A stretch of 36,793 bases of DNA from Elusimicrobiota bacterium. Its GTDB lineage: Bacteria > Elusimicrobiota > Elusimicrobia > F11. This document shows positions 11,890 to 20,273 of the stretch, piece after piece. Positions within the stretch are counted from its first letter, which is position 1. Every line of letters starts with the position of its first letter. A model generated the notes under the pieces. It worked only from the letters and a program-made list of their open reading frames with translations, was not told where the DNA came from and searched no databases. Location of the stretch: NCBI GenBank assembly GCA_003140895.1, contig PLLH01000098.1, positions 3,940 to 40,732 on the forward strand. Reading direction: 5' to 3'. The translations under genes and the position numbers were made by a program.

Positions 11890-12711
11890 TTATTTCGGAG
11901 AATAACGCGTCAATTCCGCGTCAAATGCCCCGATGGCGGCCTTCGAACGGATCAAAACAGGCATTTTACGGGCGTCGTTGGTCATCCAAATCGTCATTTT
12001 TCCTTTGGACGCCTGGAAAATCGTATCCCCCACAACAATGGGAGTCACTTTCAGACATTCAAATTTCCCCGCCTTCACGCGGATCGTCTCGATTTGCGGA
12101 TCCACTTTGACGTCCAGCGGATAAAGTTCTCCGTCGGAAAAAACGGGAAATTCATAGTCTCCTCCCGGGATGAGCGCAAGCGTTCGAGTCAGGTAGAAGG
12201 CCGACAGAATGTCATGGACCGGTTGCGTGATGGGGCCGGCGGAGGTTTGGGTTTGTCCTTTGTAATACCGGGTGAACTCGTATTTGCCGGCGTCATATTG
12301 GATTGTTGTATTTCGAATGACTTTGTAGTGCCCCTCATGCAGGTTTTGATGGAAGGTGATGGAGGCCAACGAGTCCCGGTCTGTCATGGAGCCGTTGATG
12401 TCTCGAACCGGGAAAAACACGTCGATAAAACTGTTGGATTTGGCGGTGGAGAGAATGTTGAACGTCCGCCGGCCCATGACGAGGGACCCTTCTTGCACTT
12501 CCAGCGTCGCTTCTCCGGCATCGATAAATTGGTAATGGATATTAAATTCCAGCTTTTCTCCCACCTCAAAGGCTTTGTTCTCCGCCCGGGGAAGGTGGAT
12601 CGGCTTCGTTGTCGATGAAAGGACAAGCGCGGCGGCGTCTTCGGCCTGCCCCGGGTTTGATAGCAGAAGGAGGATGGCTGATAACAAGATGGATCGACAC
12701 AGGTCTTTCAT
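11890..12711 (-). CDS. DUF3108 domain protein, exported
   Basis: The 273-residue protein has an N-terminal signal peptide (about residues 1-23, hydrophobic LLSAILLLLSN). A region typical of DUF3108 follows: FEVGEKLEFNIHYQFIDAGE, then VRDINGSMTDRD and a later PVFSDGELYPLDVKV and KCLKVTP-like strand. The family is predicted to be periplasmic and beta-rich, and is of unknown function. The ATG has AAGGGG about 6 nt upstream. It follows the GT39-LmeA-like gene by 10 bp, and both carry extracytoplasmic domains that may bind lipid or glycan. That link is inference. Confidence 0.82.
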   Translation of the reverse strand: MKDLCRSILLSAILLLLSNPGQAEDAAALVLSSTTKPIHLPRAENKAFEVGEKLEFNIHYQFIDAGEATLEVQEGSLVMGRRTFNILSTAKSNSFIDVFFPVRDINGSMTDRDSLASITFHQNLHEGHYKVIRNTTIQYDAGKYEFTRYYKGQTQTSAGPITQPVHDILSAFYLTRTLALIPGGDYEFPVFSDGELYPLDVKVDPQIETIRVKAGKFECLKVTPIVVGDTIFQASKGKMTIWMTNDARKMPVLIRSKAAIGAFDAELTRYSPK

Positions 12712-12721
12712 ACGTTACCCC

Positions 12722-14842
12722 TTACTCAATAACGAGCGTTTTTCCTTTTCCTTGGATGGAGTGAATGTCCAAATAAAATGGGATTTCATCGTTCGGCGTC
12801 AACGCGACAGTTCGGTTGGTGACGCTTTGGAGAAGGAACGACGGGAGTGGGATTCCCGCGACCGTTAGAGAGTCCAACCGAGTGTGCAACGCATCGCCTT
12901 GAACCCAAACGGAGGCTTGAAGCGTGAGGGGCACGCCCGACGCTTTCGTTTTGAGTTTGATTTTTTCCTTTTCAAAGTCCACCTCTGTTTCTCTCAGGAA
13001 CTTGGCTTTTTTCGCGATGTACGCGAGAAGAGTGTCGGCGTTTAAGGTGACGCGGGGTTGGAGCCGCGCCAATCCGATCAATTGGATTTCCTGGCTCTCC
13101 AGAAAGAGCGGGACATTCAGTTGTGGTTGGATGAAGCGGAGGGAGACGTTTTCAATCGTGAAATCTTTATACGAGAGCGAGGCGCAGGCGAAGTCCAATT
13201 CCTTGAGCCGGCCCACGGCGGTTTGCGCGGGCGAAAGGGGAACGGCTTTGAAAGACACTTTTTGGGCCACCACGTTGGGCATTTGAAACTCTCCCAATTC
13301 CAGGTTGAAGAGGCCGTCGAACGGGATATTTTGCGGTTTGGGCGAGGCGTGCAGAAGAAGGCCCTGCGACCCGTCTGGTAACGGCCATCGCCCCGCCTCC
13401 TGATACACGTTTCGAAACCAATCGGGCGGGTTCGAAACGAAATCGACGCAATTTTTGACGGTGCCGATCGTAAAGTCAGGCCCCAGATCACCGGTTTTGA
13501 TCAGAATGAATTCGTAGAGCTCCAGCCATCTTTTCTTGGCCGGTCCTCGGAACGAGACGCCTTTGACGCCCAGAGACCGGGCGGTCATCTCCAACGAATT
13601 GTTGTGGAAAAAGGGCGTGTTCGACAGAAGCAGAACCCGGGCGAAGGGCGTTTGCGGGTCTTTGAGTTCCCGGATTTTGTCCAGAATCGCTTTGTGTTGC
13701 CAATCCGCTTTAACCGGTTCGCGGGACGAGAGGATGGGGACAGGGACGGGACCTAAGTTGAATCCGGCATGAACCGCCGGAAAAAAATGGAAGGTCACAA
13801 AGAAAAGAGCCGCGATGATATTGACGATGATCAGCGGAATTTTTCGGAAGGGCGGCAACCACGCGACGCTGAGAAGAGCGGCGGCCGGCAAAACCGGCAT
13901 CGTGTAGCGCGTGTTTTTGTTGTTAAGGAACGTGAAGAAAATCATCGGGACGACAAACCAAAGAAAAAGGGACCAAAATTTAGGCTTCCAGAAAAACACC
14001 AAAAGACCGGGAATCAATAGAAGGAAAAACGGAAGATACAGTTGATCAAAGAGCCCGGCCCAATACCACAGCCAATTCCAGGCTCCCAAATTCATTCCCC
14101 CCGCCGGCGGCAAGCTGCTGTTCAAGAGTATCCGTTTCATGAACACAATGAGATTGATGGAATACCACGGCAACATGAGGAGGCCGGCAAGCGCCATGGA
14201 AAGAGCGATGGACTTGAATCTCTTTTCCGAGAGTCCATGCCACAGGCTGAGGACGAGCGGCCCCAGGAGGTAAAAAACACCCGTCCATTTGATGAGCATG
14301 CCGAGCCCCACGGAAACCCCAAAGAGGAGCGACCAGAAGACGTTTTCAAAATGTTCGGATTTGACCAGGCACAGATATCCCAGGGCGACGAAGGCCGTCA
14401 AGGCCAGATCCGTCATGGGAAAACGGGCGATATCGGCGATAATGGGATAACAGGAAATGAGAAAGGCGGCGGTGAGCGCGTGCTCGGGCTCCAAGAAATG
14501 CGTTCCGATAAAATACACGCAGACCATCAGCAAAACCAAATAGAAAAAGTTGACGAAGGCCCCCACATCCGCCAGATTTTTAACGACGTTCATGCCCAAC
14601 GCCAACGTGAGATGATAGATCGGCGGGTAGTTGAAGGTGGCGGGTTTAAGAAGCACCATCCAGTCGTGGCGAGCGAGCCCGTCATGAATATCGCAGGCCA
14701 CGCTCATGTGAATGGACTCGTCCCACGAAAGAGGTTGGGCGTCTTGATGCATCCAACGCCAGAGGACAAACCCATTCAGCGCGATAAGAAAAAACAAAAC
14801 AACTGATTTCCGTGAGAACAGTCGCATGACGATGTCGTTCAT
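12722..14842 (-). CDS. GT39-type membrane glycosyltransferase fused to an LmeA/DUF2993-like domain
   Basis: This is a 706-residue protein. Residues 1 to about 410 contain roughly ten to twelve transmembrane helices and the GT39/ArnT-type first loop with an acidic pair (SWDESIHM). KNTRYTMPVLPAAALLSVAW near the last helices also fits the family, which moves sugars from polyprenyl-phosphate carriers to lipids or proteins at the periplasmic face. After a mixed soluble domain, residues 512-706 form a separate beta-rich unit (FNLELGEFQMPNVVAQKVSF, DFACASLSYKDFTIENVSL, DSLTVAGIPLPSFL) that resembles DUF2993 (LmeA) lipid-binding proteins. I do not recall this fusion as common. It is flanked by gmhB (17 bp) and the DUF3108 gene (10 bp). 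The GT39 call is good; the LmeA-like call is moderate. Confidence 0.78.
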   Translation of the reverse strand: MNDIVMRLFSRKSVVLFFLIALNGFVLWRWMHQDAQPLSWDESIHMSVACDIHDGLARHDWMVLLKPATFNYPPIYHLTLALGMNVVKNLADVGAFVNFFYLVLLMVCVYFIGTHFLEPEHALTAAFLISCYPIIADIARFPMTDLALTAFVALGYLCLVKSEHFENVFWSLLFGVSVGLGMLIKWTGVFYLLGPLVLSLWHGLSEKRFKSIALSMALAGLLMLPWYSINLIVFMKRILLNSSLPPAGGMNLGAWNWLWYWAGLFDQLYLPFFLLLIPGLLVFFWKPKFWSLFLWFVVPMIFFTFLNNKNTRYTMPVLPAAALLSVAWLPPFRKIPLIIVNIIAALFFVTFHFFPAVHAGFNLGPVPVPILSSREPVKADWQHKAILDKIRELKDPQTPFARVLLLSNTPFFHNNSLEMTARSLGVKGVSFRGPAKKRWLELYEFILIKTGDLGPDFTIGTVKNCVDFVSNPPDWFRNVYQEAGRWPLPDGSQGLLLHASPKPQNIPFDGLFNLELGEFQMPNVVAQKVSFKAVPLSPAQTAVGRLKELDFACASLSYKDFTIENVSLRFIQPQLNVPLFLESQEIQLIGLARLQPRVTLNADTLLAYIAKKAKFLRETEVDFEKEKIKLKTKASGVPLTLQASVWVQGDALHTRLDSLTVAGIPLPSFLLQSVTNRTVALTPNDEIPFYLDIHSIQGKGKTLVIE

Positions 14843-14859: not shown

Positions 14860-15417
14860 TTAGGGGCGTTGGGCGTCAGCCACAATCCAGCGGCCGGCTG
14901 TCATCAAATTCGTCGCCACTTTCGTCGAATGTTTCGCCGCCTCGCGTCTAGCGGATCGCCCGAAACCGGTGAGCACCAAAATGCCTTTGACGCGAACGTT
15001 TTGGGCCAATTGAATGTCCCGTGTTTGATCGCCGATCAGGTACGAAGACGAGAGGTCGATGTTGAGATCGCGCTTCGCCTTCTGAATCATTCCGGGGCGC
15101 GGTTTCCGGCAGGCGCATCCGGCGTTCGGTACATGAGGGCAATAGTAAATCCGGTCGATACGCACTCCCTTTTTTCGTAAAGAAAGCCGCAACGCGTCAT
15201 GAACCCGTTTGAGTTGTGTTTCAGAGAAATAACCTCGGCCGATGCCGGACTGATTCGTGATGATAACCAGTTTGTATCCGTTCTTTTGCAGCAGACGCAA
15301 CGCCGGGAAAACGCTCTTATAGAAATGGAAATTTTTCGGACGCGATAGATACCCTCGCTCTCGCAAGAGGGTTCCATCTCGATCAAGAAAAACCGCTTTA
15401 GTTTTTGATTTTTTCAT
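14860..15417 (-). CDS. gmhB: D-glycero-D-manno-heptose 1,7-bisphosphate 7-phosphatase (GmhB-like HAD)
   Basis: The enzyme removes the 7-phosphate from heptose bisphosphate in ADP-heptose synthesis for LPS core. The 185-residue protein opens with the HAD motif FLDRDGTLL (Asp12, Asp14). It has VIITNQSGIGRGY (motif II) and the zinc-binding loop CPHVPNAGCACRKPRPG, which separates this group from other HADs, then YLIGDQTRDI. The ATG at 15417 is chosen over a GTG at 15420; AAGG sits about 8 nt upstream. It overlaps the upstream ligase-like gene by 20 bp. The related histidinol-phosphatase group is an alternative, but the envelope neighbours favour heptose. Confidence 0.86.
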   Translation of the reverse strand: MKKSKTKAVFLDRDGTLLRERGYLSRPKNFHFYKSVFPALRLLQKNGYKLVIITNQSGIGRGYFSETQLKRVHDALRLSLRKKGVRIDRIYYCPHVPNAGCACRKPRPGMIQKAKRDLNIDLSSSYLIGDQTRDIQLAQNVRVKGILVLTGFGRSARREAAKHSTKVATNLMTAGRWIVADAQRP

Positions 15418-16657
15418 CACGATTGCCTTGTCTCCTCAGATGTTCCGCCGCTCCCAACAGGGCCCAAAATATCATGGCGACTTCTTTATCTCCAATCCAC
15501 GATTCGGTGAGTCCGGCCACCATGAAAGCGGCAAAGGACGCGAGGAGCGCGGTGCGCCACGGTTTGGGAGTTCGAAGGATTGTTCCCAACGCCACGATCA
15601 ATATCCATAGGAACAGCCCCAGTCCCACCAGGCCTCGGTCCAGCGCCACTTGAAGAAAAGAATTGTGTGTTTCCGACCATGTTTTCCCGACCGCCTCCGG
15701 CGGGGTGGAGACTCGAAGTTCCACCTCTTTTAATCCGTTTCCGAAAAGTGGTTTCTGTTTGATTTCTTGAAGAGCGGCCTTCCATAGCGAAAAACGCGTG
15801 GCGCTGGATTGTTGATCGGCGGCCGAGCCGGAAGTCATGGAAAAGATGCTCTGGGCGCGTGTTCGTATTTGAGGCGACGCGAACCATAAAAGCGATCCGA
15901 ACAGGATCAACCCCACCAGCCCTACGTATTTAAGCTTCTTTGGAAGCAAAAGAGAATTGATCACGAGACCAAGCCCAACGCCCAGCCACACGCCCCGAGA
16001 TTGAGAAAAGAGGATTCCCAGAAGAAGGGTGGCCAGCCCCCCCCCTCCAGCCACAACGATTTTCCAGGAGGATTTGTTTCGTTGGAGGTGCATGAAGAGA
16101 AGCCATGTTAAGAGGATAAACAGGGCCGGAATAAAACATTCGGCGTACGTGAGGGGATGGCTTCGTGACCCCACCGCTCGCCCATTCCGCAACGAAAAAA
16201 AGTGAACCAACCGGAGAGGCCATGCCTGCATATACGCTGGGATATCGAAGGTCCGGGGCGTCGGCTGGAAATTGGCTTGTGAGAAAAACTGAAGGATTCC
16301 AATGAACCCGACGAAAACAGACGCGAAAATAAACCATCTCGTGATGGACGTTAATTCGTCGGCCTCAATTCCTTGTGAGAAGAGGAAGAACAAGAGAAAG
16401 GCGTCGTGGCCGCTGTAGATTTCTCGCGGATTGGAAAATCCGTTGGAGGCGCAGGCCACAATCCCCCACAGGATGTAGAAAAGAATGGGAAGGTTGAGCG
16501 GTGACGGTGTCCACCGTTCGCCCTTCGGCTTGTGAAAAATTCGATTCATCCAAAGAAAAAATAAGAGGGCGATGGCAAAATAAGAAGCGGAAATCGACAC
16601 AACAAGCGTGATGCCAACGAGAGCGAAAATGATTTGTCGAGTTCGAGGTTGGTTCAT
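15398..16657 (-). CDS. O-antigen ligase / polymerase family membrane protein
   Basis: The 419-residue protein has about ten to twelve transmembrane helices and a large periplasmic loop between residues about 125 and 180. It matches the Wzy_C/WaaL family plan, with RSHPLTYAECFIPAL, then SRGVWLGVGLGLVINSLLL, and TWSETHNSFLQVALDRGLVG holding the conserved His-containing loop. WaaL joins O-antigen to the lipid A core; Wzy polymerises repeat units, and sequence alone does not separate the two. The start is taken at ATG 16657, which overlaps the lpxL stop by 4 bp. A longer frame from 16753 would read through the lpxL tail repeats and is rejected. The lpxK-lpxL-gmhB context favours a ligase role. 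Confidence 0.78.
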   Translation of the reverse strand: MNQPRTRQIIFALVGITLVVSISASYFAIALLFFLWMNRIFHKPKGERWTPSPLNLPILFYILWGIVACASNGFSNPREIYSGHDAFLLFFLFSQGIEADELTSITRWFIFASVFVGFIGILQFFSQANFQPTPRTFDIPAYMQAWPLRLVHFFSLRNGRAVGSRSHPLTYAECFIPALFILLTWLLFMHLQRNKSSWKIVVAGGGGLATLLLGILFSQSRGVWLGVGLGLVINSLLLPKKLKYVGLVGLILFGSLLWFASPQIRTRAQSIFSMTSGSAADQQSSATRFSLWKAALQEIKQKPLFGNGLKEVELRVSTPPEAVGKTWSETHNSFLQVALDRGLVGLGLFLWILIVALGTILRTPKPWRTALLASFAAFMVAGLTESWIGDKEVAMIFWALLGAAEHLRRQGNRDEKIKN

Positions 16658-17613
16658 GCCTTGTCCTCGTTGGCGGCAGGCGCGGCCGGTCCCGGCGAGG
16701 CCGATCCCGGCGAGGCCGGTTCCGGCGTGGCTGGTTCGGGCTTTCGCTTCCACCGGTTATGAATCCAAAACCAATTCTCCGGAGTCCGGCGAACCACGGC
16801 TTCAATGGAATTGTTGATTAGTTGAGTATGGGTAAAAATTCGTTGATCCATATCGGCAATCTCCGGCAATGGAATGGGTTCATAGACGATTTTGAATTTG
16901 GTCCCCTCACGAAGGGAATAGATTAGAACCACCGGCGCGTCCGTCCGCGAATGAAGGAGAGCCGGTAAGGTGGTGGTCGCGGCGGGACGGCCGAAGAAAT
17001 TGACGAACACTCCTCCCGTGTAGAGATTTTGATCCACCAGAATTCCCAGATTTTTTCCATTTTTTAATACTCGGAGGCTTGCTTTGGCGGCTTGGCGATG
17101 CCAGATCATGTTGGTGGTGTTGACGGATCGTTTGGATTGCACCCACGCTTCCACCAAGGGGTTTTTCATCGGACGCGCGATCCCGAACGTTTCGCCGAAA
17201 TATCGACCCGTGCAAATGCTTAACACTTCCCAGTTCGTGAAATGAAAGCCGATCAGAATACTGCCTTTCCCTAAAGCCAAGAGTTTGTCGAATTGTTCTT
17301 TTCCTTCAATAAAGAAAAATTCATCAAAGCGGTCGCCGGTGGTTTCAGAGAGGCGAACGAATTCAACGGCCGTCCTCCCTAAGTTTCTCCAAACCCCTTT
17401 GGCGATGTGTTCGATTTCGGCGTTCGATTTTTCGGGAAAGGCGGCGGCCAGATTGGCCTTGATGAGTTTATTGCGAGGCCTGAGTATCCACGAGATCAGC
17501 GTCCCCAGCGCTTCCCCGAAGGCGAGCGTGGCCGGACGCGGGAACAGGAACAACAGGAAATCCGCCGTTTTGACGAATCCATATTCAATCCGATGTTTGA
17601 GCGTCGGGGTCAT
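16654..17613 (-). CDS. lpxL: Lipid A late acyltransferase (LpxL/HtrB family)
   Basis: This family adds a secondary acyl chain to the lipid A precursor at the inner membrane. The 319-residue protein has a hydrophobic N-terminal helix (residues about 14-45), the catalytic HX4E motif in HFTNWE (His124, Glu129), GILVDQNLYTGGVFVNFFG, and a late WFWIHNRWKRKP. Residues 292-319 form an Ala/Pro tail encoded by 15-bp tandem repeats and absent from typical LpxL. The start at ATG 17613 overlaps the lpxK stop (ATGA). The 17652 alternative would add 13 residues inside lpxK. LpxL, LpxM and LpxP cannot be separated by sequence here. Confidence 0.9.
   Translation of the reverse strand: MTPTLKHRIEYGFVKTADFLLFLFPRPATLAFGEALGTLISWILRPRNKLIKANLAAAFPEKSNAEIEHIAKGVWRNLGRTAVEFVRLSETTGDRFDEFFFIEGKEQFDKLLALGKGSILIGFHFTNWEVLSICTGRYFGETFGIARPMKNPLVEAWVQSKRSVNTTNMIWHRQAAKASLRVLKNGKNLGILVDQNLYTGGVFVNFFGRPAATTTLPALLHSRTDAPVVLIYSLREGTKFKIVYEPIPLPEIADMDQRIFTHTQLINNSIEAVVRRTPENWFWIHNRWKRKPEPATPEPASPGSASPGPAAPAANEDKA
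16679..16738. repeat. Tandem repeat, four 15-bp units, coding for the LpxL tail
   Basis: Four consecutive imperfect 15-bp units read on the plus strand as ggcgcggccggtccc, ggcgaggccgatccc, ggcgaggccggttcc and ggcgtggctggttcg. On the minus strand they encode five-residue steps of the PEPAT/PEPAS/PGSAS/PGPAA kind. The unit is a multiple of three, so copy-number change would keep the frame. The region lies just before the overlapping ATG of the O-antigen ligase-like gene. Confidence 0.85.
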
Positions 17614-18737
17614 ACGGGGTTCTTGAGCGCGCGTTGGAGCGCTTGCGTCCACGCGTGTTCGTCGTGGGGGTTCATCTCAATGCCGACCCGGCTGATAAGC
17701 AGTTTTTTCATTAGAGGCGACCCCGTGAGCCGTTCCATGGTTTTCAATTTGATCCAGTCTTTTTCCGTCGTGACGACGGTGGCGGACGCGTTTTCAGCCT
17801 GGGCTTCAATTCGCTCGATATGCTGCGACGTGTAGGTTTGGTGATCCGAAAAGCGCATCGGAAGAACGAGCCCTCCCATCCGCCGTAATCCATTTTCAAA
17901 GGCGTTCGGGTTCCCGATCCCTGAGACGGCGACAATGTTTTTCGAGCGTAACGTCTCCGCTTCAACGGGATGTCCCGCGCTATCGAAAAAGCGAGTGATA
18001 AACCGGCTCGTCAGCACGTGTCCCGTCCCCACCCACTTCTTAACTGATTTTCGAAGTGTCTCCGTTTCCTCTGGGTTCAATAATTCGGTGCGGGTCAGAA
18101 CGACCACGTGGGCCCGGGAGAGAGCGCTGAGGGGTTCACGAAGTCGTCCCCACGGAATGAGATGATTCCCCCCGACGGGGGTTCCCCCAAAAGGGTCCGT
18201 CGCGTCGATGCAGACGATGTCGAGAGTTCGTTTGATGGGCCAATGTTGAAACCCATCGTCCAACACAAAAACGGAAGGATGAAAGGACGCCTCAATACGT
18301 TTGGCTGATTTGCGTCGATTCGCCCCCACGCCAATGGGCACGCCGGGACATTTATCCGCCAATAAACGAGGCTCATCGGCGCCGTTCATATGGCTCTTTT
18401 GAGACCCGTCTGAATAAACAATCGGGTTCGATGATTTCAGGAGTCCGGCGTAGCCCCGCGTCAAAATGGCGGGCTTGCCTCCCAACGTTTGAATGTCGTG
18501 GACGGTTTTTAACACGAGCGGTGTTTTGCCGGTTCCGCCCCACGTGAGATTGCCGATGGAGATGACGGGAAGAGATAAGGTGGACGCGAAGAGCGAGCGA
18601 ATCGTTTTGTCAAAGGCGAGACCGATTCGATACAAGACGGAGAAGGCGGCGAGAAATGGTGTCATAAAAAGTTGAGTGAGGCCAAGGCCGACCTTACAGC
18701 CGGGACTGGCCCCGGGTGCATTGGAGGTGAAAATCAA
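17610..18737 (-). CDS. lpxK: Tetraacyldisaccharide 4'-kinase
   Basis: LpxK phosphorylates the 4' position of the tetraacyldisaccharide to form lipid IVA at the inner membrane. Visible features are an N-terminal membrane-associated helix (about 24-45), ISIGNLTWGGTGKTPLV with the Walker A loop at 67-73, ILTRGYAG, DEPRLLADKCP, VFVLDDGFQHWPIKRTLDIV, AVSGIGNPNAFE and VVTTEKDWIKL. The 375-residue length assumes a TTG start at 18737 with GGAGG 9 nt upstream. The ATG at 18665 would leave a shorter N-terminus and has no clear ribosome site. The TTG choice overlaps the deacetylase gene by 44 bp. The family call is firm; the start is not. Confidence 0.92.
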   Translation of the reverse strand: MIFTSNAPGASPGCKVGLGLTQLFMTPFLAAFSVLYRIGLAFDKTIRSLFASTLSLPVISIGNLTWGGTGKTPLVLKTVHDIQTLGGKPAILTRGYAGLLKSSNPIVYSDGSQKSHMNGADEPRLLADKCPGVPIGVGANRRKSAKRIEASFHPSVFVLDDGFQHWPIKRTLDIVCIDATDPFGGTPVGGNHLIPWGRLREPLSALSRAHVVVLTRTELLNPEETETLRKSVKKWVGTGHVLTSRFITRFFDSAGHPVEAETLRSKNIVAVSGIGNPNAFENGLRRMGGLVLPMRFSDHQTYTSQHIERIEAQAENASATVVTTEKDWIKLKTMERLTGSPLMKKLLISRVGIEMNPHDEHAWTQALQRALKNPV

Positions 18738-19509
18738 GCATATTTTCCTCCCCTCGAATAAAAACGCGAGGGACGCCGTAGGGGCATTGGGTCATTTGGT
18801 CAGGGGTCCATTTCCCCGCGTGAATGCCGATCCCTAACCGGTAGCCGCTGTCTTGAACGGCTTTCCGAATAAGGGGGTCGTCTTCCCCGGCTCCATAGGG
18901 ATTGGCGAACGTGAGCGGGGCCTCACCCAGGAATTCGGCGATGTGCTTTCGGCTCTCGGTTAACTCTTCCCTCACCTTGTCCATGGGCAGTTTCGTGAGG
19001 TTGGGGTGGTTCATGGTATGAGATCCAATTTCCCATCCCGCTTTCTTCAGTTCCCGGACTTGGGCCCACGTCATCATGGGAATACGGGTCTCGGTGGCCG
19101 GGTTGTGCCAGCGGTTATCGGCTCCCACCGTGTTCACAACGACAAAGAGCGTGGCCCGGAACCCAAAATCCCTCAAAGGTGGAAACGCTTCCAAATAATT
19201 ATTGACGTAACCGTCATCGAAGGTGATGATCACCGGTTTTTTGGGAAGCGCCAATTTTAAGTCCCAATGTTGATAGAGATCGTTGAAGGTGATGGCCTGA
19301 TAGCCTCTTTGGGATAGATAGGCCATTTGACGCCGGAATTTTTCCGGGCTCACCCAGAGCTTTTTGAGTTTGGATTCTTTCGGCGGAATCCCGACCTTAT
19401 GATAAAGAAGAATGGGAATCCCGGCGCGCTTGGGGCGCCACCAGTTCCACCTCGCGCTCAAAGCGCCCCCTAAGACAACGGCTGTGCCAATAAGAATCGG
19501 AGCGAGCAT
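18694..19509 (-). CDS. Polysaccharide deacetylase (NodB/CE4 family), membrane-anchored
   Basis: This 271-residue protein has an N-terminal hydrophobic helix (about 2-18) that probably anchors it facing the periplasm. The NodB domain shows ILLYHKVG, the metal and catalytic motif TFDDG at 96-100, MTWAQVRELKKAGWEIGSH, and the histidine motif SHTMNH (163-168). A late TFANPYGAGEDD fits the third motif region. CE4 enzymes remove acetyl groups from N-acetylated sugars or poly-GlcNAc. Because the gene lies between a core-type glycosyltransferase and lpxK, an LPS or capsule substrate is likely but unproven. Its ATG overlaps the upstream stop by one base (TAATG). Confidence 0.87.
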   Translation of the reverse strand: MLAPILIGTAVVLGGALSARWNWWRPKRAGIPILLYHKVGIPPKESKLKKLWVSPEKFRRQMAYLSQRGYQAITFNDLYQHWDLKLALPKKPVIITFDDGYVNNYLEAFPPLRDFGFRATLFVVVNTVGADNRWHNPATETRIPMMTWAQVRELKKAGWEIGSHTMNHPNLTKLPMDKVREELTESRKHIAEFLGEAPLTFANPYGAGEDDPLIRKAVQDSGYRLGIGIHAGKWTPDQMTQCPYGVPRVFIRGEENMLDFHLQCTRGQSRL

Positions 19510-20273
19510 TATTTTTTCCCCTCAAGGTCGCGAAGTTTTAGAAATTTGATCCAGGTGTAATAAGCGGAGAGCGCCGCGTAAATGAGTCCGGCCTCGCCGT
19601 CCAGAAATCCAAGTTTGAGAACATATCGCATGAAAAACGCCATCGGCAGGCGAAGGTGATGCCAGCAATGGAACCGTTCCCCTTTCTCCCATTTCTCTTG
19701 GGCGATGAGGGAGGTGTAGAGGTTGCATTTCGTGAGATATTCCTCGATGTTTCGATAACTCAAATGGTCGATGGGATGATTCAAGTGTCCCGCGGGCGAA
19801 TCCAGGTGGACTCCCTCATGAATTTTTTTGTTTCCGTAGGTCACGTGGCCTTTTTGAAAGAGGCGGATGTGTTTTTCCCCCGCCACGCCGCCGAACCGGA
19901 GGCGTTTCCCTAAAAAGGTGTGGCGAAACGGAATATCGTAGCCGTGAGAGGCAATGGAGGGGTCCCAGGCGAGAATCTGCCGAATTTCCGTTTGAAGAGC
20001 GGGTGAGAGGCGTTCATCGGCGTCGATGTTGAGAACCCAGGGGCCTTTGGCTTTGTCCAAGGCGAATTGTTTTTGAGGGCCGTATCCTTCCCATTCTTTG
20101 TGGAAAACCTGGACGCCGAACCGTTTCGCGATCTCAATGGTCTGGTCCGTTGAACCGGAGTCGGCCAAAATGATCTCAGTCGCAAGGGGTTTCACGCTTT
20201 CAAGACAGTCGGCGATGTCGTGCTCTTCGTTTCGAGCGATGATGATGACAGAAAGTCCGTGTGAAGGCGGCAT
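19509..20273 (-). CDS. Glycosyltransferase family 2, WaaE/KdtX-like
   Basis: The 254-residue cytoplasmic GT2 enzyme begins with LSVIIIARNEEHDIADCLESV. It has ADSGSTDQT and the metal-binding DAD at 84-86 in LNIDADERLS. The segment QKQFALDKAKGPWVLNIDADE and the later HIRLFQKGHVTY with NKKIHEGV are typical of WaaE/KdtX-like transferases that add a glucose to the LPS inner core. A C-terminal hydrophobic region (about 215-245) may sit on the membrane. The lipid A genes downstream support an LPS core role. The sugar and acceptor cannot be read from sequence. Confidence 0.85.
   Translation of the reverse strand: MPPSHGLSVIIIARNEEHDIADCLESVKPLATEIILADSGSTDQTIEIAKRFGVQVFHKEWEGYGPQKQFALDKAKGPWVLNIDADERLSPALQTEIRQILAWDPSIASHGYDIPFRHTFLGKRLRFGGVAGEKHIRLFQKGHVTYGNKKIHEGVHLDSPAGHLNHPIDHLSYRNIEEYLTKCNLYTSLIAQEKWEKGERFHCWHHLRLPMAFFMRYVLKLGFLDGEAGLIYAALSAYYTWIKFLKLRDLEGKK

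Follow-up and report, generated by a model that had tools for sequence, protein, structure and literature searches.

The question raised by this locus is whether a membrane glycosyltransferase and a domain of the LmeA (DUF2993) family, read in one frame of an Elusimicrobiota genome, belong to a genuine single protein, and which task the two parts might share. The window analyzed here, i.e., the whole stretch of 36,793 nucleotides, carries this gene at the following position:

12722..14842, minus strand: gene for a 706-aa fusion of an ArnT-like GT-C glycosyltransferase with an LmeA-like domain

The uninterrupted 706-codon frame described in an earlier note on this DNA was borne out by reading of the ORFs, with an ATG start and no internal stop, and the source genome searched with the fusion protein gave no second match at E ≤ 0.001. 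By Pfam, the protein matched PMT_2 at residues 73–225 (51.3 bits against a cut-off of 26.1) and PMT (41.5 bits against 22.7), a profile that takes in other GT-C families too. At residues 527–705 it also matched LmeA, PF11209, with 29.1 bits against a gathering cut-off of 27.3, almost end to end along the profile (28–214 of 217), and the C-terminal 195 residues alone reached 33.6 bits. The claimed likeness of the C-terminal domain to DUF2993/LmeA is hence supported by Pfam, just above the curated cut-off. The full-length AlphaFold model had a pLDDT of 91.2 and a pTM of 0.89. There is little room for doubt that the chain is built of three parts, a GT-C module, an ArnT-type periplasmic domain and an LmeA/DUF2993-type domain, the last of which can be further divided:

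13778..14842, minus strand, residues 1–355: polytopic GT-C membrane module (PMT_2/PMT), from Pfam, model helices and ArnT/PMT/STT3 fold matches
13328..13777, minus strand, residues 356–505: ArnT-type periplasmic domain between the GT-C and LmeA-like parts, from the ArnT structural alignment and our own profile
12725..13327, minus strand, residues 506–706: LmeA/DUF2993-like domain, from Pfam, AlphaFold and the structural list
13058..13327, minus strand: N-terminal half of the LmeA-like domain, in a Chorein-N-like position by analogy with DUF2993 (PMC6791001)
12725..13057, minus strand, residues 596–706: TULIP-like C-terminal half of the LmeA-like domain, from domain-model alignments

The periplasmic domain that separates the two parts named in the earlier note had been overlooked there. 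About 11 membrane helices were counted by eye in the GT-C module of the model, and an odd helix count (our own) after a basic N-terminus would place the C-terminus in the periplasm.

Modeled alone, the C-terminal domain reached a pLDDT of 95.2, and its structural list was headed by TULIP proteins, i.e., CETP (Z 5.7), YceB (5.5), P47 (4.8) and BPI (4.6), although all VIA Z values were below 8 and unrelated rows were interspersed among them. Residues 91–201 of this model aligned to YceB (Z 5.5), P47 (4.8) and one BPI row (4.2), while LmeA itself was not among the rows, which is uninformative either way. Proteins with the TULIP fold anticipated for this domain thus headed the list, but with Z at most 5.7 and no significant Foldseek match (none at E ≤ 0.001 with the domain model). 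A C-terminal domain of another beta-rich kind, with LmeA as a borderline profile hit, would agree with this Foldseek result, with the narrow Pfam margin, and with a Pfam LmeA search of 334 Elusimicrobiota genomes in which just 10 exceeded the cut-off and the source's own domain was missed. Pfam LmeA was likewise found at E ≤ 0.01 in just 12 of the 25 members of alignment A1. However, the ten genomes above the cut-off reached 57.7 bits at best, the match of the source protein spans nearly the whole profile, Pfam assigns to LmeA (35.6 bits) a free-standing relative that adjoins the fusion in L118, and TULIPs top the structural list, so that another kind of domain appears very unlikely. A lipid-handling role for the LmeA-like domain is, in turn, reasonably probable.

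The same domain order proved widespread, in three phyla. Of 334 Elusimicrobiota genomes, 107 were matched by the profile of the C-terminal domain, at 118 places in all, of which 111 lay in frames of at least 536 aa; going by the length of the frames, the fusion is the prevailing form in this phylum. It recurs in the phyla containing candidate division FCPU426 and Nitrospinaceae, where the GT-C part was in the same frame at 22 of 24 fetched domain loci, and in two FCPU426-phylum genomes the fusion has a separate LmeA-type frame as its immediate upstream neighbor. As a control, the phylum titled Cyanobacteria showed mostly free-standing frames of 218–341 aa (134 of 138 LmeA matches). The searches of Elusimicrobiota and of the FCPU426 and Nitrospinaceae phyla used the C-terminal domain alone as query, unlike the collection of 85 non-redundant C-terminal-domain proteins (frames of at least 350 aa), 83 of which also matched the GT-C profile within that frame, in a set that includes the source protein and is partly biased, some loci having been fetched with the full-length protein. 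Our own profile of the middle periplasmic domain (“mid”) matched 75 of 85 proteins. GT-C and LmeA distance matrices were correlated (r = 0.93, 72 sequences), for which shared descent alone suffices if the two parts travel together. A sequencing or assembly error joining two genes, a caveat raised earlier, was dropped as an explanation: nothing was found in its support, the fused order is kept across many genomes of the three phyla, and the probability left to it is negligible.

Then, the nature of the transferase was considered. The best structural match of the model was ArnT 5f15 (Z 31.6, rmsd 3.7, 420 aligned, residues 8–501), with ArnT 5ezm aligned over residues 9–502, whereas Pmt1-Pmt2 (6p25; Z 27.6, 340 aligned) and STT3 (Z up to 27.3) came behind. 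The label GT39, proposed for this enzyme earlier, is too specific and was abandoned because ArnT matches better and has the middle periplasmic domain too. Alignment A1 compared with E. coli ArnT gave an hhalign probability of 85.7 (E 5.5e-6, residues 110–326). Going by its model, the enzyme is closer to ArnT than to GT39/PMT. It was not classed as ArnT, because the NCBIfam library, which we take to include an ArnT model, yielded no ArnT-specific match for the fusion protein, the sole row being unrelated (E 0.17). Sequence searches of solved structures with P0001, A1, A3 and DUF3108 gave no meaningful match. Three positions were followed along the family, and the acidic and basic ArnT residues aligned with them are presumably active-site residues:

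14720..14722, minus strand: Asp41 codon; this residue of the WDE loop, the first one on the periplasmic side, is the putative catalytic acid and lines up with an E. coli ArnT Asp
14408..14410, minus strand: Asp145 codon; the second acid, which also lines up with an Asp of ArnT
14288..14290, minus strand: Lys185 codon; a basic residue that lines up with a Lys of ArnT

The source protein keeps all three. The WDE loop noticed previously is indeed present at residues 40–42, and D41 is kept in at least 90% of the 25 sequences of alignment A1. Among letter-bearing rows, D was found at D41 in 46 of 57 and at D145 in 55 of 82, and K at K185 in 65 of 83, counts in which the source protein is entered twice (source and L001) and the first gene of L062 and L121 are gaps only. 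Genomes of family f6 depart from this pattern, since K185 is absent in 17 of 18 rows (12 H, 5 D) together with R312, and D145 is missing in 16 of those 17; an Asp stands one place off the D41 column in several f6 rows, whose A in that column may therefore come from misalignment. Of 11 rows from the Nitrospinaceae phylum, one has D at D145, with K185 and R312 retained, and T replaces D41 in two further proteins (L132, L133).

The genes around the fusion bear on its acceptor. They are arranged as follows:

11890..12711, minus strand: separate DUF3108 gene (Pfam), 10 bases downstream of the fusion stop
14860..15420, minus strand: gmhB-like heptose-bisphosphate phosphatase gene (NCBIfam, synteny), 17 bases upstream of the fusion
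15398..16753, minus strand: Wzy_C/WaaL-type O-antigen ligase-like gene (Pfam)
16654..17652, minus strand: LpxL-type lipid A acyltransferase gene (Pfam)
17610..18737, minus strand: lpxK, lipid A 4'-kinase gene (Pfam, NCBIfam)
18694..19509, minus strand: polysaccharide deacetylase gene with a hydrophobic N-terminus (Pfam, sequence)
19509..20273, minus strand: GT2 glycosyltransferase gene (Pfam, sequence)

The order lpxK-lpxL-waaL-gmhB-fusion-DUF3108 belongs to a lipid A/LPS cluster that is conserved in close relatives. DUF3108 does directly follow the fusion, as had been noted, but the proposed three-domain module was set aside as unsupported, DUF3108 being a separate gene that only five relatives have within 1 kb downstream of the fusion. 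An ArnC-ArnD-ArnT pathway built on the neighboring GT2 and deacetylase was also discarded, because the former showed only generic GT2 similarity to E. coli ArnC (E 0.001) and the latter, among the locus neighbors, no match to ArnD. In L056, GT1 and GT9 genes of heptosyltransferase type come after the fusion, while in the largest family, f15, the neighbors checked in three genomes are not lipid A genes. This last observation, the Pfam PMT and PMT_2 matches and the fold similarity to Pmt1-Pmt2 and STT3 would be in line with an enzyme modifying proteins or a lipid-linked polysaccharide precursor, in a PMT-like or oligosaccharide role, the C-terminal domain recognizing the acceptor and the LPS genes being incidental. 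Such an acceptor is nevertheless rather improbable in view of the lipid A/LPS cluster kept by close relatives, of the heptosyltransferase-type neighbor in L056 and of the best match, ArnT, whose acceptor is lipid A and which also has a periplasmic domain. If the precursor were lipid-linked, this alternative would have the lipid arm in common with our preferred explanation. For LPS or lipid A as the acceptor, we consider the chances to be even.

On balance, we lean toward an ArnT-like inner-membrane transferase that depends on a polyprenyl-phosphate sugar, carries a built-in periplasmic lipid-binding arm and modifies LPS or some other glycan anchored to lipid. At the outer leaflet, the GT-C module would use Asp41 to take the sugar from polyprenyl phosphate, and would then add it to lipid A/LPS core or to some other lipid-anchored glycan. 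On the periplasmic side, the LmeA-like domain, predicted to be Chorein-N/TULIP-like, may grip the acyl chains of the acceptor or product, and this arm could present the substrate, hold it through transfer or pass it on. Coupling of sugar transfer to lipid binding in the fusion protein, as suggested earlier, is plausible. Mycobacteria would have two proteins for the same task, free LmeA and MptA, a mannosyltransferase that depends on polyprenol. Passages of a study of this pair (PMC7643837) state that LmeA maintains MptA and, for M. smegmatis LmeA, that it binds phospholipid; the model proposed there for its help to MptA is enzyme maintenance, lipid trafficking, or both.

Alternatively, the LmeA-like domain could be a stabilizer or assembly part, holding the GT-C module in a folded or dimeric state without handling lipid, which overlaps partly with the preferred explanation. 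Indeed, mycobacterial LmeA is described in parts of that study as keeping MptA levels up under stress, post-transcriptionally (PMC7643837), the pTM of the whole model suggests a fixed arrangement, and the domain is retained in branches with an altered active site. Conversely, a pure stabilizer would not need a TULIP/Chorein-N fold, whereas LmeA binds phospholipid (PMC7643837), DUF2993 is predicted, in passages of another paper (PMC6791001), to be Chorein-N plus TULIP, and TULIPs head, weakly, the structural list of the domain studied here. We regard a stabilizer of this kind as doubtful. In a speculative and tentative generalization of the lipid-binding transferase, LmeA-type domains throughout bacteria would be subunits dedicated to handling lipid for GT-C enzymes that depend on polyprenyl-phosphate sugars. 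Mycobacteria would have the domain as a separate protein, Elusimicrobiota and the Nitrospinaceae phylum in fused form, and the FCPU426 phylum in both forms. The transferase would then work on an acceptor held by its acyl chains in a periplasmic lipid tube, and the f6 branch would be a lipid-handling protein with a remodeled active site.

In a literature search covering titles, starts of abstracts and passages, no description of a glycosyltransferase-LmeA fusion was found. Because the fused form predominates in Elusimicrobiota and recurs in two further phyla, these proteins represent a broad family of likely envelope enzymes of which we found no description. The natural fusion is independent evidence for a direct cooperation of LmeA-type and transferase parts. 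Besides, single-chain fusion proteins could be purified and their structures solved with donor and acceptor.

Compared with known systems, the fusion shares with ArnT (5f15, 5ezm) a GT-C module followed by a periplasmic domain, the aligned D41, D145 and K185, and a lipid A gene context seen in its close relatives. It differs from ArnT in that the sequence similarity is remote only, the match stops at residue 501–502, ahead of the LmeA-like domain, and the two locus neighbors tested had no ArnC/ArnD match; 13 membrane helices are given for ArnT in a passage of PMC7801869, against about 11 by our own count. The protein O-mannosyltransferases of the PMT/GT39 type (Pmt1-Pmt2, 6p25) have in common the GT-C fold and the Pfam PMT match, but the fold match stops at residue 369 and covers neither the periplasmic nor the LmeA-like domain. 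Bacterial TULIP proteins (YceB/DUF1439, P47) and BPI/CETP are among the top rows of a weak structural list, with a similarity of Z 5.7 at most. To our knowledge, none of them is joined to a glycosyltransferase. ClaspCone-1 proteins, in the passages of PMC12419801 that describe them, combine a predicted lipid-acting enzyme domain and a TULIP in one periplasmic protein, the catalytic part being a Lipocone domain, not a glycosyltransferase. Finally, mycobacterial LmeA (Rv0817c; PF11209, DUF2993) belongs to the same Pfam family over nearly the whole profile, is predicted to be periplasmic and is linked to a polyprenol-dependent glycosyltransferase. Whereas LmeA supports MptA as a separate protein, about 270 aa long according to PMC6791001, the domain here forms the C-terminal end of the transferase, in a 706-aa protein, and hence is not classed as an LmeA orthologue; its hosts, moreover, are bacteria with lipid A genes. 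The best reading of this comparison is that the fusion would correspond to mycobacterial LmeA and MptA combined in one chain.

The uninterrupted 706-codon frame of the fusion gene and the DUF3108 gene directly following it, both claimed in the earlier note, were borne out:

12722-14842, (-) strand: fusion gene, ATG start, 706 codons, no internal stop
upstream, 17 bases from the fusion start: gmhB-like gene
11890-12711: DUF3108 gene, beginning 10 bases past the fusion stop

No match to a second copy was obtained at E <= 0.001 in the source assembly (2.5 Mb, 118 contigs), and the nearest named relatives are found in Elusimicrobiota, i.e., ‘Candidatus Obscuribacterium magneticum’ (49% identity) and Elusimicrobia MAGs. 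Pfam assigned PMT_2 to residues 73-225 (51.3 bits), PMT to residues 93-239 (41.5 bits) and LmeA to residues 527-705 (29.1 bits, above the cut-off of 27.3), the last score reaching 33.6 bits when the final 195 residues were taken alone.

The full-length AlphaFold model (25-sequence alignment; pLDDT 91.2, pTM 0.89) displays about 11 membrane helices by our count, the last ending near residue 353, followed by a mixed alpha/beta domain (about 356-505) and a beta-rich domain (506-706). ArnT (5f15) was the top solved-structure match (Z 31.6, rmsd 3.7, 420 residues aligned) and also ranked first with Foldseek. Because this match spans residues 8-501 of the model, the protein is composed of three parts, the middle one being the counterpart of the ArnT periplasmic domain. 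Hence, the two-part architecture first proposed holds for the GT-C and LmeA-like parts but lacks the ArnT-type domain lying between them. The GT39 label is in line with the Pfam PMT match, whereas by fold ArnT outranks Pmt1-Pmt2 (Z 27.6, 340 residues), whose match stops at residue 369.

The C-terminal domain modelled alone (47 sequences) reached a pLDDT of 95.2. Foldseek returned nothing for this model at E <= 0.001. In the VIA list, CETP came first (Z 5.7, rmsd 4.4 over 133 aligned residues), ahead of YceB (Z 5.5, rmsd 4.2 over 99), while P47 (4.8), BPI (4.6 and 4.2), juvenile hormone binding protein (4.2) and Takeout (3.8) appeared lower, interspersed with unrelated proteins. None of these rows is strong by itself, and the case for a TULIP fold, to which the model gives weak support, comes from how many of them share a single superfamily. 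The alignments of YceB, P47 and one BPI row fall in the C-terminal half of the domain (model 91-201), in agreement with PMC6791001, where DUF2993 is divided into Chorein-N (N-terminal) and TULIP (C-terminal) parts. The LmeA/TULIP likeness put forward earlier is thus favored by the Pfam score above cut-off and by TULIP proteins heading the VIA list, but not by Foldseek or by Z scores of at most 5.7. Also against it, Pfam LmeA was detected at E <= 0.01 in only 12 of the 25 members of the full-length alignment.

The distribution of the fusion depends on the profile used. Of 340 Elusimicrobiota genomes, 118 gave a match to the full-length protein at E <= 1e-5; many of these matches extend over almost all of it, and others are limited to the GT-C part. 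The Pfam LmeA profile alone matched 29 of 334 genomes, with 27 of the 29 matches in frames of at least 536 aa; this is an undercount, since the same search missed the window's own domain. A more sensitive C-terminal profile, made from fusions and one tandem gene without a GT-C match, identified 107 of 334 Elusimicrobiota genomes and 118 places (two overlapping within one gene), 111 of them, as scored by frame length, in frames of at least 536 aa. The seven shorter frames measure 63-494 aa, and three (G116, G139, G216) begin no more than 260 bases from a contig end, on the expected GT-C side. Matches were also obtained in 13 of 45 genomes of the phylum of G343 (titled FCPU426), where frames of at least 575 aa account for 14 of 18 places, and in 18 of 77 genomes of the phylum of G341 (titled Nitrospinaceae), where frames of at least 586 aa account for 19 of 21. 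When 24 loci bearing the domain were retrieved from both phyla, 22 also showed the GT-C profile within that frame; it was absent from L092, a tandem gene, and from L093, a free LmeA frame. The same domain order, which the earlier note proposed to seek in other genomes, was found: among 85 non-redundant domain proteins in frames of at least 350 aa, a set partly chosen by full-length search, the frame also matches the GT-C profile in 83 cases and the middle profile in 75.

Of 98 genomes from the phylum titled Cyanobacteria (that of G348), 67 contain Pfam LmeA, at 138 places in all. By our count, 134 of these places are free-standing frames of 218-341 aa, one of which is interrupted by a stop. 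The remaining four frames measure 402, 425, 646 and 852 aa. The 646-aa frame (L121:1583-3520, (-) strand) combines a C-terminal LmeA match (49.8 bits) with about 400 N-terminal residues without Pfam match and no match to the GT-C profile; it is perhaps a different kind of fusion.

Free and fused forms also occur together. Two genomes of the FCPU426 phylum have a free LmeA-type frame immediately upstream of the fusion, start codons not being fixed: one of 264 aa (L118:2796-3587; Pfam LmeA 35.6 bits, above cut-off), 118 bases before the fusion frame, and one of 297 aa (L119:3196-4086; 24.1 bits, below cut-off), overlapping it by 7 bases. In a third case (L124), the frame is short, contains an internal stop and has no Pfam match. 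At L123, two 768-aa frames stand in tandem, both with the C-terminal domain by our profile; Pfam LmeA was below cut-off in the first and absent in the second. The first (L123:487-2790, (+) strand; the same gene as L062:5986-8289) encodes a multi-helix protein with an LmeA-like C-terminus directly upstream of the fusion gene. Its N-terminal part matches neither our GT-C profile nor Pfam, and the product is perhaps a diverged partner subunit. Across 72 sequences, the GT-C and LmeA distance matrices correlated at 0.93, a value reached by 0 of 2000 permutations, as would be expected from sequences whose two parts had traveled jointly.

At the active site, D41, D145 and K185 align with Asp, Asp and Lys of E. 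coli ArnT, residues that are catalytic or donor-binding in ArnT. In a survey of 86 rows (85 proteins, the window protein entered twice), the corresponding residue was retained in 46 of 57, 55 of 82 and 65 of 83 letter-bearing rows, respectively. In Elusimicrobiota family f6, 17 of 18 rows bear H or D at K185, and among these 17 D145 is lost in 16 and R312 in all, which suggests from the alignment that their transferase reaction may be altered or lost. These rows (L071, L074, L075, L077, L079-L085, L125-L130) all retain the LmeA-like domain. Of the 11 rows from the Nitrospinaceae phylum (L054, L056, L110-L117, L122), only one keeps D at D145, the other 10 having G, S, N or E there, with K185 and R312 retained. 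Given such changes, either other residues are used in these two branches or the role of the LmeA-like domain is independent of a canonical active site.

The gene order in the window is GT2, polysaccharide deacetylase, lpxK, lpxL-type acyltransferase, waaL-type ligase, gmhB, fusion and DUF3108. All eight genes occur in the same order in Obscuribacterium (L039), with an additional 562-aa open frame between gmhB and the fusion, and partial versions were observed at L005, L040 and L041. Five relatives (L005, L039-L042) have DUF3108 downstream of the fusion, two of them after gaps of about 650 and 840 bases; a sequence search among solved structures revealed no relative of DUF3108 at E <= 1. Elsewhere, the fusion is followed by a GT1 gene and a GT9 heptosyltransferase-type gene (L056, Nitrospinaceae), and in three genomes of family f15 (L044, L058, L061) Pfam-matched neighbors comprise nucleotidyl transferases, a methyltransferase, a mannose-phosphate-isomerase-type cupin and another GT-C protein. 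The GT2 and deacetylase genes adjoin lpxK at 18694-20273; their assignment as ArnC and ArnD was rejected by comparison with both proteins. At L057, L059 and L062, the surroundings of the fusion likewise include a deacetylase and a waaL-type gene. These neighborhoods may point to a product containing a deacetylated amino sugar.

From this gene context and the resemblance to ArnT, LPS or lipid A is favored as the candidate acceptor. In the simplest reading, the acceptor or product would be held by its lipid end, with the LmeA-like domain gripping it at the enzyme's periplasmic mouth. The results that count against this are the weak TULIP fold support, the Pfam LmeA matches in fewer than half of the alignment members, the changed active-site positions, and the lack of ArnC and ArnD among the GT2 and deacetylase neighbors. 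The individual parts are already known, and no description of the GT-C/LmeA fusion and its breadth was found in the literature searched, most subscription journals lying outside that search. In mycobacteria, MptA is a GT-C protein. PMC7643837 describes mycobacterial LmeA as a phospholipid-binding protein with a part in mannan elongation. It also maintains MptA, an enzyme that depends on polyprenol-phosphate-mannose, probably post-transcriptionally; the authors proposed MptA maintenance, lipid trafficking, or both. The fusion links an LmeA-type domain to an enzyme that broadly resembles MptA in kind.
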